The notes beneath the pieces were generated by a model, which was given only the letters and a program-made list of their open reading frames with translations, was not told the origin of the DNA and did not search any database. The position numbers and the translations under genes are program-made. Below, piece by piece: positions 25,026 to 56,499 of a DNA stretch of 64,000 bases (the stretch's first letter is position 1; each line of letters opens with the position of its first letter). This stretch comes from Stella humosa. GTDB taxonomy: Bacteria > Pseudomonadota > Alphaproteobacteria > ATCC43930 > Allostellaceae. The stretch is taken from positions 4,508,001-4,572,000 of the forward strand of contig NZ_AP019700.1 of assembly GCF_006738645.1 (NCBI RefSeq), given 5' to 3'.

Positions 25026-25898
25026 CTACCGCAGGTACCGCTCCTCCTGCGCCTTCATCTCCGCCACGCCCTGCACCGCGAAGACGCGCTCGGTCGGGGC
25101 GATGGCGCCTTCCACGCCCAGCACGCCACCGTCCGCGCGGATGCGGCGGAAGGTGTCGGTCAGGGCCTGGGTGATCGCGCGCACACCATGGTTGCCGTAG
25201 ATGACCAGCTTCACCTTGCCCAGCGCTCGGATGCGTTCCTCGGTCATGTCGGGATAGGCGGTGGGCACCAGGACGAGCGGAATGGTGCCGTCCCAAGCCT
25301 CGACGAAAGCGACGATCTCGTCCGGGGTCTTGCGCTTGGAGTGGATCAGGATAGCGTCCGCACCCGCCTTCTCGTAGGCGCGCGCCCGCATCAAGGCCTC
25401 CTCCTGGCCAAGGCCGGCGATCAAGGCCTCGGTGCGGGCGATCACCAGCAGATCGGGATCGCGACGGGTTGCCACGGCGGCCGCGATCTTGCCCTCGAAC
25501 TCGGCCACGCGGACCAGTTCCTGGCGGCCGCCGGCCAGCAGGCTGGTGTCCTTGGGAAAGGTCTTGTCCTCGATCACCAGGGCTGCCACGCCGGCCGCCT
25601 CATACTGGCGGGTGGCGTGGATGACGTTGGTGGCATTGCCGAAGCCCGTATCGATGTCGGCCACCACCGGGATGCCGATGGCGGCATCCATGAAGCGCGT
25701 CATGTCGAGATGCTGGGTCATCGTCACGATGCTGGCGTCGGGCACGCCCATGGCGGCCGACAGCTCGAAGCCGCTGGCCCAGATGCCGTCGAAGCCGGCC
25801 TCCTCGGCCAGGCGGGCGCCCAGCGGGTTGTGGGCGCCGATGATGGCGGTCAGCGGCTTCTGCGCCAGCTTGGCGCGGAAGGTGGCTCGCTTGGACAT
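25026..25898 (-). CDS. pphA: phosphonopyruvate hydrolase
   Basis: Member of the isocitrate lyase/PEP mutase superfamily predicted to split phosphonopyruvate into pyruvate and phosphate. It is 290 residues, the length of the characterised Variovorax Pal2 enzyme as I recall it. Active-site residues line up: D54, D81, D83, E110, K116, R155 and H186. The discriminating residue in EDKTFPKDTS is T118, where PEP mutases have Asn, which fits hydrolase rather than mutase. The start is the ATG giving MSKRATF, with GAGGA upstream. Last gene of a minus-strand series with an acyl-CoA synthetase 19 bases upstream. No transaminase or phosphonate transporter is in view. Confidence 0.82.
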   Translation of the reverse strand: MSKRATFRAKLAQKPLTAIIGAHNPLGARLAEEAGFDGIWASGFELSAAMGVPDASIVTMTQHLDMTRFMDAAIGIPVVADIDTGFGNATNVIHATRQYEAAGVAALVIEDKTFPKDTSLLAGGRQELVRVAEFEGKIAAAVATRRDPDLLVIARTEALIAGLGQEEALMRARAYEKAGADAILIHSKRKTPDEIVAFVEAWDGTIPLVLVPTAYPDMTEERIRALGKVKLVIYGNHGVRAITQALTDTFRRIRADGGVLGVEGAIAPTERVFAVQGVAEMKAQEERYLR

Positions 25899-51631: not shown

Positions 51632-52675
51632 TCAGACTCCCCTGTTCGCCGGCCGCCACACCTGGCGGGCCACCCGCATCCAATTGCCGCCCAGAATGCG
51701 GCGCACGTCGTCATCGCCATACCCGGCCGCCGACAAGGCATCGGTCAAAGGCGGCACCTGCTCGGGCTGAAAGAACTCCGGCACCCGGGCGCGGTCGTAG
51801 CCGCTGCTGGCCGGAAACCGCTGGGCGGTGCCGCGGATCAGCACGTTGGTCAGCGTTTCCGGATCGTAGACGAAGTCGAGCCCGAGGCCGACATGCTCCG
51901 GCCCGACCAGGTCGAGGCAGTAGCGCATGTGGCGCAGGAACAGCTCCACCGTCGGCGGCCCGCCCAGGAAGAGGTCGAGCCCGTTGATGCCGACCACGCC
52001 GCCCGACGCCGCGCATGCCCGGATCTGGTCGTCGCGGATGTTGCGCTCATGCTCGAACATCGCGCGCGGGTTGGAGTGCGAGAAGATGACGGGCGCGGTC
52101 GACGCCTCGATCGTGTCGAGCGAGCTGCGATATCCCACATGCGTCACGTCGACGATCATGCCGACGCGGTTCATCTCGGCCACCAGCGCCAGGCCGAAGC
52201 GGCTGAGGCCGGCATCGGTGCGCTCGTGGCAGCCGTCGGCCGCCAGGTTGCGCATGTTGTAGGCGAGCAGCATGTGGCGGATGCCGAGGTCGTAGAACAG
52301 TTCGACGTTCTCGAGCTTGCCGTCGAGCGGGTTGCAGCCCTGGAAATGAAAGGCGATGGCGAGCTTGCCCTCGGCCTTGGCGCGTTCGATGTCGGCCGCG
52401 GTGTCGACCAGCACGAAGCGGTCCGGCCGCTCCAGGAAGAAGCGCCGCTCCTTGGCGAGCGAGGCCATCGCCTCGGCGAAGGGCGTGCGGTCCTGGGCCA
52501 CGGTCAGCGAGACCATGCCGTAGCCGCTGTCGATCAGGCGATCGAGGGTGCCCGGCTTCAGCTCCGCGCGCTGGGCGTAGTCGCCCCAGGGCATGGTCAT
52601 GTCGACCACGATCGCATCGCGGTGCAGCGCCGACAGCGTCGGGGATGGTACTGAGGCAGACGCGATTGCGCTCAT
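51632..52675 (-). CDS. divergent M19-family dipeptidase-like protein
   Basis: 347-residue TIM-barrel protein of the renal (membrane) dipeptidase family. The second metal-site segments are kept: DVTHVG, FSHSNPRA, GLDFVYD. The usual N-terminal HxD (DGHND) is replaced by DMTMPWG, and the bridging Glu appears as Gln (FHFQGCN). This argues for one metal, or for loss of peptidase activity. GAGGAG precedes the ATG giving MSAIAS. Co-transcribed with the substrate-binding protein and divergent from the CocE gene. Confidence 0.82.
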   Translation of the reverse strand: MSAIASASVPSPTLSALHRDAIVVDMTMPWGDYAQRAELKPGTLDRLIDSGYGMVSLTVAQDRTPFAEAMASLAKERRFFLERPDRFVLVDTAADIERAKAEGKLAIAFHFQGCNPLDGKLENVELFYDLGIRHMLLAYNMRNLAADGCHERTDAGLSRFGLALVAEMNRVGMIVDVTHVGYRSSLDTIEASTAPVIFSHSNPRAMFEHERNIRDDQIRACAASGGVVGINGLDLFLGGPPTVELFLRHMRYCLDLVGPEHVGLGLDFVYDPETLTNVLIRGTAQRFPASSGYDRARVPEFFQPEQVPPLTDALSAAGYGDDDVRRILGGNWMRVARQVWRPANRGV

Positions 52676-52701
52676 GGCCGCTCCTCGTTGTCGAGGAACC
52701 G

Positions 52702-52713
52702 TACAGTGCTGTA
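52702..52713. promoter_or_regulatory. short inverted repeat in the divergent M19/CocE promoter region
   Basis: TACAGTGCTGTA (arms TACAG/CTGTA, centre TG) lies about midway between the two divergent start codons (52675 and 52755). A regulator such as the TetR protein encoded downstream could bind here, but no second copy was found. Confidence 0.3.
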
Positions 52714-52754
52714 TGGAAATTCGGCAAGGACGCTTTCGGGAGGGGAATCGCGCG

Positions 52755-54590
52755 ATGTCGGACAGCTCCAAGGGGTCGCCCGCCTGGACCATCAGCCCGG
52801 CCGAATACCTGGCTGGCCGGGCGAAGACCGCGACCGGCGGGATCGAGCGGCGCTCGCTCTACGTCGCCGCGCGCGACGGGGTGCGGTTGGCGGTCGACAT
52901 CCACCTGCCGGCCGGCGAGGCGGCGGTACCGCGGCCGACCATCGTGCTGTTCACCCCCTATTATCGCCGCTTCCGCCTGAACGAAGGCACGCCGGCCGCC
53001 GTCGAGGCCAGCCCCAGCTATGCCGTCTATCGCGATTTCTTCGTACCCTACGGCTATGCCGTAGCGATCGTGGACGTGCGCGGCACCGGCGCCTCGTTCG
53101 GCGCGCGCGAGGGCTTCCGTTCGCCGACCGAGCGGCTGGACTACTACGACGTGGTCGATTGGATCGCCCGCCAGCCCTGGAGCGACGGGCAGGTCGGCAT
53201 CACCGGCATCTCCTATGTGGGTGCTGCGGCCGACTTCGCGGCATCGACCGGCCACCCGGCGATCAAGGCGGTGATGCCCACCTTCTCGGTCTGGGACACC
53301 TGGGGCGACATGTTCTACCCGGGCGGCCTGCTCTATATCGGCATGATCGGCGGCTATGGCCGCATGATCGAGGCGCTCGACCTCGATCGGCGCGACGTGC
53401 TGCAGGAGTTCCCCTATTTCGCCGGCCCGCACTATGCCGGCCCCGCCCCGGTCGACGACGATCCGGACGGCACCGACGTGGCCGCCGCGATTGCCGAGCA
53501 CGCGGCCAATTTCGACACCACCGCCTTCGTGACGCAGTTGACGGCGCGCGACGCGGCCTTCGCCCACGACCCGGCCTTCAAGGCGACAACGGTGGCGCCG
53601 CGCACCTACCTGTCCGGCATCCGGCCGGAACTGCCGCATTACGGCGTGTCGGGCTGGATGGACGGGGCGGCCTACACCAACGGGGCGGCCGGGCGCTTCA
53701 ACGCCCTGCCCAACCCCGAGAAGCGGCTGCTGTTCGGCCCGTGGGACCATGGCGCGCGGACCAATGTCAGCCCGGCACGCGTCGGCGCCCGCCCGCGCTT
53801 CGAGATGAATGCCGAGATGCTGCGCTTCTTCGACCAGCATCTGGCCGGCATCGACACCGGCCTGCCGGCCGAACGCCCCGTCCATTACTTCACGATGATC
53901 GAGGAGGCCTGGAAGGCGTCCGACACCTGGCCGCCGGCGGCATCGTCGCAGACCTGGCACCTGGCCGACGGCCAGGCGCTGGCCGTGGCCGCGCCCAACA
54001 GCGACGGCGCCGACCAGTACCGGACCGACCACGGCATCGGCACCGGCCGCAACACCCGCTACGAGCGCATCGCGGGCCAGCCGGTCGAGGAATACTATCC
54101 CGACTGGCACGGCCGCGACGGGCGCATGGCGGTGTGGACCAGCCCGGTGCTGGAGGCCGAAACCGAGGTGACCGGCCACGCGCTGGCCCGCCTGTGGATC
54201 GCGTCCGACGCCGAGGATGCCGGCATCATCCTTTATCTGGAGGATGTGGGACCGGACGGGCAGACCCGCTACGTCACCGAGGGGCGGCTGCGCGCGCTCT
54301 TCCGCAAGACGGCGCCCGCGCCCGCCGACTATCCCCATACCGGCCCCTGGCACCCGATGGGGGTGGCCGATGCCGAGCTGCTGACGCCGGGCGAGCCGAC
54401 CCTGCTGGAGATCCCGCTGATGCCGACATCCTGGCTGTTCCGGGCGGGGCACCGCATCCGCCTGGCCCTGGCCGGCGCCGACCGCGATCACCTGGCCCGG
54501 CTGCCGTTCGGCAAGTCCCCCCTGCTGACCATCCTGCGCGGGCCGGACCGGCCGTCCGCCCTGACCTTGCCGGTGATGCCGCGCAGTTGA
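52755..54590 (+). CDS. CocE/NonD family hydrolase
   Basis: 611-residue alpha/beta hydrolase of the CocE/X-Pro dipeptidyl-peptidase (S15) type. Nucleophile S153 in GITGISYVGAAA. The oxyanion tyrosine is in LFTPYYRRF, and VRGTGAS is typical. The C-terminal jelly-roll begins around residue 430. Substrates range from esters to amides and cannot be read from sequence. The ATG giving MSDSSKG has GGGAGGGG upstream. Its last 103 bases overlap the 3' end of the antisense TetR gene. Confidence 0.88.
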   Translation: MSDSSKGSPAWTISPAEYLAGRAKTATGGIERRSLYVAARDGVRLAVDIHLPAGEAAVPRPTIVLFTPYYRRFRLNEGTPAAVEASPSYAVYRDFFVPYGYAVAIVDVRGTGASFGAREGFRSPTERLDYYDVVDWIARQPWSDGQVGITGISYVGAAADFAASTGHPAIKAVMPTFSVWDTWGDMFYPGGLLYIGMIGGYGRMIEALDLDRRDVLQEFPYFAGPHYAGPAPVDDDPDGTDVAAAIAEHAANFDTTAFVTQLTARDAAFAHDPAFKATTVAPRTYLSGIRPELPHYGVSGWMDGAAYTNGAAGRFNALPNPEKRLLFGPWDHGARTNVSPARVGARPRFEMNAEMLRFFDQHLAGIDTGLPAERPVHYFTMIEEAWKASDTWPPAASSQTWHLADGQALAVAAPNSDGADQYRTDHGIGTGRNTRYERIAGQPVEEYYPDWHGRDGRMAVWTSPVLEAETEVTGHALARLWIASDAEDAGIILYLEDVGPDGQTRYVTEGRLRALFRKTAPAPADYPHTGPWHPMGVADAELLTPGEPTLLEIPLMPTSWLFRAGHRIRLALAGADRDHLARLPFGKSPLLTILRGPDRPSALTLPVMPRS

Positions 54591-55185
54591 TCCGGCATCT
54601 CGAAGCCCGTCAGCACCCGGTAGTAGAAGGGCAGCAGGTCGAGCCGGCGCTGGCGCGATTCGCGGATCGCCAGCGCGTAGTAGCCGACCTGGTGAAAGTA
54701 GGCGACGCGGGCACGCACGAAGGCATCTTCGCCGGCAAACCCGAGGTCGGCGAAGATCGCCGCCAGCAGGGCGATGCGCCGCTCGTCGATCCGGCCGACG
54801 GCGGTCGCCGCCGACGGGTCGTGGCGGGCCCAGTCGCGCACCGCCGAGTCGTAGGCCGGGCTGAAGGCGACCTCGTCGATCCACAGGCGGATCAGGGCGA
54901 CCAGCTTGGCATGGCCGTCGCTGCCCGCCTGGGCCACCGCCTGCTCCATCGGCGCGGTGTTGGTCGCCTCCCAATGGGCCAGCAGGGCGGTCAGCAGTTC
55001 CGCCCGGTCGGCGAAATGCCAGTAGAAGCTGCCCCGGGTCACGCCAAGGTCGGCCGCCAGCCGGTCGACCTTGACCCCGGCGACCCGCCCGCCACCAAGG
55101 CATGGCGCGCCGCATCCACCCAGTCGCCGCGCGCCAGCGGCCCCGCCCGATCGGCCCCTTCCCGCGTTCCCGCCCTGCGGACCAT
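54488..55185 (-). pseudogene. frameshifted TetR-family regulator
   Basis: The 5' part, from the ATG at 55185 (MVRRAGTREG... to ARHALVAGG), and the downstream part (VAGVKVDRLAADLGVTRGSFY then WHFADRAELL) together make a standard TetR DNA-binding domain, but they lie in different frames. A single C is missing from a C-run at 55084-55086 (plus strand). The upstream frame ends about 50 codons in. The C-terminal ligand domain is intact down to 54488. Either a recent inactivating mutation or a sequencing error. An internal GTG start at 55042 would give only a headless protein. It is divergent from soxB and probably governed it or the CocE/M19 pair. Confidence 0.82.
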
Positions 55186-55242
55186 CCTCGTTCCCTTCGC
55201 CACCCGGCTAGCCTAGAGTCCTGGACGAAAACGGAAACCCCC

Positions 55243-56499
55243 TTGCCCCGCCTCGCATACTCCGCCCTTTCCCTGCTCCGCCAGGGGCTTGCTCGCCATC
55301 GCGGCTGGCAGCCGGTCTGGCGCATGCCGGAACCCAAGCCGCGCTATGCCGCGATCGTGGTCGGCGGCGGCGGCCATGGGTTGGCGACCGCCTACTACCT
55401 GGCGCGCACCCACGGCATCACCGACGTGGCGGTGCTGGAGAAGGGCTGGCTCGGCGGCGGCAATACCGGCCGCAACACCACCGTGGTGCGTTCCAACTAC
55501 TACTTCCCGGCGAGCGGCGCGCTCTATGACCTGGCACTGAAGCTGTACGAGGGCCTGTCGCGCGAGTTGGATTTCAACGTCATGCTATCGCAGCGCGGCA
55601 TGCTGATGCTGGCCCACAGCCACCACGACATGGAGTTCGCGCGGCGCACGGCCAATGCGATCCGGCGCAACGGCATCGACTGTCAGTTGCTCGACCGTGC
55701 GGCCGTCGCGCGGCGTGTGCCGATCCTCGACATGTCCGGCGATGCCCGCTTCCCGGTCCTGGGCGGCTATCGCCAGGCGCGCGGCGGCGTCGCCCGGCAC
55801 GATGCCGTCGCCTGGGGCTATGCCCGCGGCGCCGACCGGCTGGGCGTCGACATCATCCAGAACTGCGAGGTGGGCGGCTTCCTGACCGAGGGCGGCCGCA
55901 TCGTCGGCGTCGAGACCTCGCGCGGGACGATCCGGGCGGACCGCGTCGGCCTGGCGGTCGCCGGCCATTCCGGCGTGCTGGCGGCCAAGGCGGGGTTCCG
56001 CCTGCCGATCACCAGCCACGCGCTGCAGGCCTTCGTGTCCGAGCCGGTGAAACCGATCATCGACGAGGTGGTGCTGTCGCCGGCCACCGGCGTCTATGTC
56101 AGCCAGTCCGACAAGGGCGAGCTGGTACTGGGCGGCGGGCTCGACCTGCACCCGTCCTATTCGCAGCGCGGCAACCTGCCGGTGGCCGAGAACGTGCTGT
56201 CGGGCCTGGTCGGCATGTTCCCCTGCTTTGCCAACCTGCGCCTGATGCGGAGCTGGGGCGGCATCGTCGACGTCGTCCAGGATTCGAGCCCGATCATCGG
56301 CCCGGCCCCGGTCGAGGGCCTCTATCTCAATTGCGGCTGGGGCACGGGCGGCTTCAAGGCGATCCCGGCCGGCGGCACGCTGCTGGCCCATGTCATGGCG
56401 ACCGGCGAGCAGCACCCCATCGCCCGCCCCTTCGGATTGGAGCGGTTCGCCAGCGGGGCGCTGGTCGACGAGGCCGCGGCCTCCGGGATTCCCCACTGA
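55243..56499 (+). CDS. soxB: sarcosine oxidase subunit beta
   Basis: 418-residue flavoprotein subunit of heterotetrameric sarcosine oxidase. FAD motif GGGGHGLATA (41-50). Covalent FMN attachment is predicted at H186 in ARHDAVAWG. A TTG start is proposed because the family begins RYSAFSLLR-like right there, and the upstream in-frame ATG would add 47 non-homologous residues that overlap the regulator. No clear Shine-Dalgarno. The substrate is sarcosine, oxidised to glycine with folate accepting the one-carbon unit. Confidence 0.93.
   Translation: MPRLAYSALSLLRQGLARHRGWQPVWRMPEPKPRYAAIVVGGGGHGLATAYYLARTHGITDVAVLEKGWLGGGNTGRNTTVVRSNYYFPASGALYDLALKLYEGLSRELDFNVMLSQRGMLMLAHSHHDMEFARRTANAIRRNGIDCQLLDRAAVARRVPILDMSGDARFPVLGGYRQARGGVARHDAVAWGYARGADRLGVDIIQNCEVGGFLTEGGRIVGVETSRGTIRADRVGLAVAGHSGVLAAKAGFRLPITSHALQAFVSEPVKPIIDEVVLSPATGVYVSQSDKGELVLGGGLDLHPSYSQRGNLPVAENVLSGLVGMFPCFANLRLMRSWGGIVDVVQDSSPIIGPAPVEGLYLNCGWGTGGFKAIPAGGTLLAHVMATGEQHPIARPFGLERFASGALVDEAAASGIPH

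Follow-up and report, generated by a model that had tools for sequence, protein, structure and literature searches.

A one-base frame break within the helix-turn-helix of a tetR gene in the deposited genome of Stella humosa, and a candidate operator for its TetR group

The tetR locus and its two reading frames

The window analyzed here is a stretch of 64,000 nucleotides from the genome of S. humosa ATCC 43930 (G000; AP019700; one contig of 5,832,650 bp), a star-shaped bacterium from soil. It contains tetR (minus strand, 54488-55185) between soxB and a CocE/NonD hydrolase gene, the latter being divergent from a gene of the M19 dipeptidase family (Table 1). The relatives from the same genus with which it was compared were S. 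vacuolata (L033), Stella sp. ATCC 35155 (L034), and the metagenome-assembled genome SJ646 (L035). Called from the ATG at 55102, the soxB ORF is too long; the TTG at 55243 is probably the conserved start and leaves a gap of 57 bp to tetR. At the opposite end, tetR and CocE overlap by 103 bp, with the final ~35 TetR residues antisense to CocE.

Table 1. Genes and sequence features around tetR (window coordinates)
Feature	Position	Strand	Evidence
M19 membrane dipeptidase family gene, predicted target	51632..52675	-	PF01244, 283 bits
Candidate TetR operator GTACAGTGCTGTAT between M19 and CocE	52701..52714	.	motif scans; same place in L033-L035
CocE/NonD hydrolase gene, predicted target	52755..54590	+	TIGR00976, 353 bits; PF02129 and PF08530
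tetR/CocE 3' ends, tail-to-tail antisense overlap	54488..54590	.	ORF coordinates
Frame B: remaining HTH plus the TetR ligand-binding part, up to stop codon 54488	54488..55086	-	translation; PF00440 positions 16-47; identity to Stella orthologues
GTG, first ATG/GTG/TTG of frame B	55040..55042	-	ORF list
Junction: C-rich stretch, window one base short of relatives	55084..55093	.	MAFFT alignment with 3/3 genus relatives; C runs listed
Frame A: TetR N-terminus, ATG 55185 to ...ARHALVAGG (HTH helix 1 region)	55084..55185	-	translation; alignment to the intact N-termini of L033-L035
Degenerate operator-like site between tetR and soxB (4 of 12 positions mismatched)	55213..55226	.	motif scan
soxB (sarcosine oxidase beta family), divergent from tetR, TTG start probable	55243..56499	+	TIGR01373, 645 bits; tblastn extents in relatives

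In the deposited sequence, translation of tetR gives two frames, with the switch within the helix-turn-helix (HTH). Frame A, from the ATG at 55185, reads MVRRAG...WVDAARHALVAGG and ends at a stop codon 14 codons past ALVAGG; alone it has no Pfam match, being too short. Frame B reads VAGVKVDRLAADLGVTRGSFYWHF... and continues until the stop at 54488, with no stop codon and no second frame break downstream of the junction. In the ORF list, frame B has no ATG, GTG, or TTG ahead of the GTG at 55042, and because this first start is inside the HTH, a product begun there would be without HTH helices 1-2.

An earlier note had claimed, from the sequence alone, that this regulator is broken by one missing base inside its DNA-binding domain, and had proposed a comparison with orthologues. 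That comparison bears the claim out: both TetR halves share one frame in three of the three genus relatives, giving a continuous frame through the HTH where the window has two, and a MAFFT alignment of the DNA shows that the window lacks a single base at the junction. The break is therefore not a matter of chance in reading the frames, and the frameshift is confirmed as real in the deposited sequence. The placement of the missing base as a C of the run at 55084-55086 was somewhat over-precise, since the alignment, although one base short there, gives the gap no unique position inside the C-rich stretch 55084-55093 (plus strand).

Like the TetR/AcrR-family repressors (PF00440; AcrR, MtrR, and TtgR), the gene has an HTH profile above the Pfam cut-off and is associated with a palindromic, here putative, site in divergent promoters; unlike them, its frame is broken within the HTH. 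The TetR_N match on frame B (PF00440, 32.8 bits with a cut-off of 24) covers profile positions 16-47 of 47 only, and among the 21 TetR_N matches in the S. humosa genome it is the only one starting past profile position 4. The C-terminal ligand-binding region has no Pfam family above the cut-off. Matches to the NCBIfam models for MtrR (29.6 of 280 bits) and AcrR (25.5 of 271 bits) are far under their cut-offs, and the nearest solved structure, 4uds MbdR, is a weak match (E 1.9e-5). No second homologue of tetR was found in the S. humosa genome at E<=0.001 (1 match).

Each same-genus genome contains one orthologue, with identities of 79% (G001), 77% (G002), and 87% (G003). In the wider set, 76 of 80 homologous loci have an open frame and a start codon 15 or more residues upstream; the four exceptions are L052, L054, and L055, which are without such a start and match the query only from a late position, and L100, which lies at a contig end. 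Outside Stella, the homologues mostly cease matching near TetR residue 160. Two homologues of proteobacterial type, L086 and L040, come from metagenome-assembled genomes whose records bear the titles Exiguobacterium profundum and Candidatus Planktophila lacus; either the labels may be mistaken or the bins may be of mixed origin.

A candidate operator and its predicted targets

A new element of this analysis is the palindrome ATACAG-N2-CTGTAT, a putative operator of the TetR group. Within the 290-bp block upstream, 27 of the 80 homologues have it with two or fewer mismatches and 15 with one or none, while 300 draws of permuted half-sites reached maxima of 7 and 2, respectively. Over the 80 loci, 36 sites lie in the 27.8 kb upstream of tetR and 31 in the 907 kb elsewhere. 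The motif is not general to the whole set, because 53 of the 80 loci have no site in the upstream block. Outside Stella it is tied to soxB more than to M19/CocE. Of the 20 loci whose SoxB match has at least 45% identity, 14 have a site ~65 bp or less from the start of that match.

In S. humosa, the best candidate lies at 52701-52714 in the promoter gap shared by the divergent M19 and CocE genes. In a scan of the whole genome, it was the top-scoring site and the only one with a single mismatch, and two-mismatch sites were about as numerous as in the reversed control. The case for this site rests on its conservation, because the chance expectation for so loose a pattern is 0.63 in the window alone. 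Its counterparts have 1 mismatch in L033, 1 in L034, and 2 in L035, and none of the three complete Stella genomes has a second site with one or fewer mismatches.

On the sox side, the closest match to the palindrome between tetR and soxB departs from it at 4 positions in the window, at 7 in S. vacuolata, at 3 in ATCC 35155, and at 1 in the metagenome-assembled genome. Four or fewer mismatches were also found in 69 of 2000 random 90-bp blocks, a count in which 25 of the 2000 had no readable match. As a side observation, TetR is intact in all three relatives, yet the sox-side candidate operator is near perfect in the metagenome-assembled genome but weaker in ATCC 35155, and S. vacuolata has none.

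Neighboring sox or CocE/M19 genes had both been suggested in the earlier note as possibly constitutive. Because the site is conserved at M19/CocE and degenerate on the sox side, M19 and CocE are the better predicted derepressed targets in S. humosa, and sox the weaker. This choice of target in Stella is our own deduction, since elsewhere the motif is linked more with soxB.

Age and origin of the break

A disrupted copy in S. humosa beside intact orthologues in close relatives is the pattern of a recent pseudogene. The remaining protein shows little sign of decay. Against a profile of 37 non-Stella homologues, frame B scored 224.8 bits over residues 1-160, compared with 218.7-221.3 bits for the intact sisters. 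Amino-acid replacements on the S. humosa branch exceeded those on the S. vacuolata branch by 8 to 1 with L034 as the outgroup (p=0.039) and by 10 to 3 with L035 (p=0.092), and none of the 12 tests on six neighboring genes fell below 0.05; with 14 relative-rate tests in all, the tetR signal would fall away under correction. A codon-model branch test gave omega of 0.084 versus 0.036 (p=0.088 for four taxa and 0.23 for three); these are rough estimates, given that synonymous changes on the S. humosa branch approach saturation. The replacement excess weakly hints at a real relaxation of selection on the S. humosa side, and the profile, rate, and codon data together fit a very recent loss, perhaps following slight relaxation, or no loss. 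An old pseudogene free of constraint, which the slight excess of replacements might favor, is very improbable and was rejected on the profile score, which equals or betters that of the intact sisters, and on the codon model, which rejects neutral evolution of the S. humosa branch (p=0.0016); the downstream part, with neither a stop codon nor a second break, also argues against it. Still less credible, to the point of being negligible, is a functional product made by an internal start or by programmed frameshifting. From the GTG at 55042 onward, frame B is open, but a protein begun there could not bind DNA as a normal TetR does, and programmed frameshifting was rejected because the relatives read in one frame and need no shift.

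The earlier note had left recent loss and assembly error side by side, and the intact sister genes, the undecayed downstream half, and the survey of assembly quality keep both in place. If the consensus is in error, the gene is intact in the cell and the deposited sequence dropped a base in a G+C-rich stretch. The undecayed downstream half of TetR and the intact candidate operator favor this, as does the local GC of the junction (0.77 in 100 bp, 88th percentile). Furthermore, the assembly method for S. humosa was not that of its sisters: 25,819 Nanopore reads (mean length 3,340 bp) were assembled with Canu, and the result was circularized and polished with Pilon, while the two sister genomes are Unicycler hybrids with far more Nanopore data (PMC6687932; raw reads of S. 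humosa, DRA008500). From the figures in that report, we computed a Nanopore depth of ~15x for S. humosa and of about 170x and 130x for the sisters. An indel left over in the consensus must therefore be taken seriously as an alternative. In contrast, the total coverage of S. humosa is 140x (PMC6687932) and must therefore be mostly Illumina, used in polishing; annotated CDS per Mb, computed from the table of the same report, are nearly equal in the three Stella genomes (953, 945, and 947); and the weak amino-acid excess on the S. humosa branch also counts against an error.

Nor was there a clear excess of frame breaks in S. humosa over the two sister genomes in the stretches surveyed. An intrinsic scan for frame switches covered 384 kb of S. 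humosa and 400 kb of each sister, with 12 candidates in S. humosa, 10 in S. vacuolata, and 12 in ATCC 35155; the one of the 12 S. humosa candidates that was read, at window position 25886, is an ordinary gene junction. A three-way homology survey comprised 113 gene tests for S. humosa (60 against genes of S. vacuolata and 53 against genes of ATCC 35155, with two tests for many genes), 110 for S. vacuolata, and 126 for ATCC 35155. S. humosa had the most raw candidates (9, against 3 and 5, respectively), all of which were judged to be over-long ORF starts, eight from reading the sequence and the ninth, the start region of M19/CocE, from the ORF list; in each sister, one raw candidate was read. 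Both surveys miss the tetR break itself, owing to the short N-terminal piece and an over-long sister ORF, and they therefore bound the general error rate with limited sensitivity, the homology sample bounding the rate of breaks only to a few per cent of genes. The splits from a first syntenic survey were not used, too few genes being shared (16-35 per S. humosa comparison). The single-base break in an otherwise intact conserved gene resembles frameshift pseudogenes and the gene-fragmenting errors of long-read assemblies (e.g., PMC12007338), and differs from them in that the surveyed stretches have no clear general excess. On balance, a recent true loss and a consensus error are about equally likely, and the error falls just short of an even chance in our estimate.

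A possible TetR regulon linking soxB with peptide hydrolases

The reading that we propose is one of very recent loss. A TetR-type repressor would ancestrally have bound ATACAG-N2-CTGTAT palindromes, and its main surviving site in Stella would be the divergent M19-dipeptidase/CocE promoter. The loss of one base from the cell's own HTH sequence would have destroyed the repressor very recently in S. humosa ATCC 43930, and M19 and CocE would then have been freed from repression. As a whole, this explanation could equally well be right or wrong. On its own, such a single-base break is an ordinary event for one regulator gene. It serves mainly as a warning that the database sequence of S. humosa should be checked against reads at tetR, and the intact relatives give a concrete candidate operator and predicted targets for an uncharacterised TetR group tied to sarcosine oxidase and peptide hydrolases.

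Known sox regulators such as SoxR and SouR/GbdR are sigma54-linked or AraC-type. In Pseudomonas, the sarcosine oxidase genes are regulated by SouR and GbdR. In Bacillus thuringiensis, SoxR with sigma54 is reported as a sox regulator (PMC4941409). The regulator described here resembles SoxR and SouR/GbdR in its link to sarcosine oxidase genes and differs in being of the TetR type, with its best Stella site at M19/CocE. Among the papers listed in literature searches for a TetR regulator of sox, none was recognised as a description of this system. More tentatively, and with somewhat less confidence than in the very recent loss itself, a proteobacterial TetR regulon with the operator CCATACAG-N2-CTGTATGG may join soxB with M19 dipeptidase, CocE, a POT symporter, and TonB receptors, perhaps for the use of N-methylated or sarcosine-containing peptides; in Stella, the sox-side site would have eroded and the M19/CocE site stayed, before S. 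humosa lost the repressor. In other bacteria, palindromes resembling the operator also precede a gene for a POT oligopeptide symporter and genes for TonB-dependent receptors (L057:6639, L057:8427, L046:6784, and L049:8955), hinting at a wider peptide-uptake regulon.
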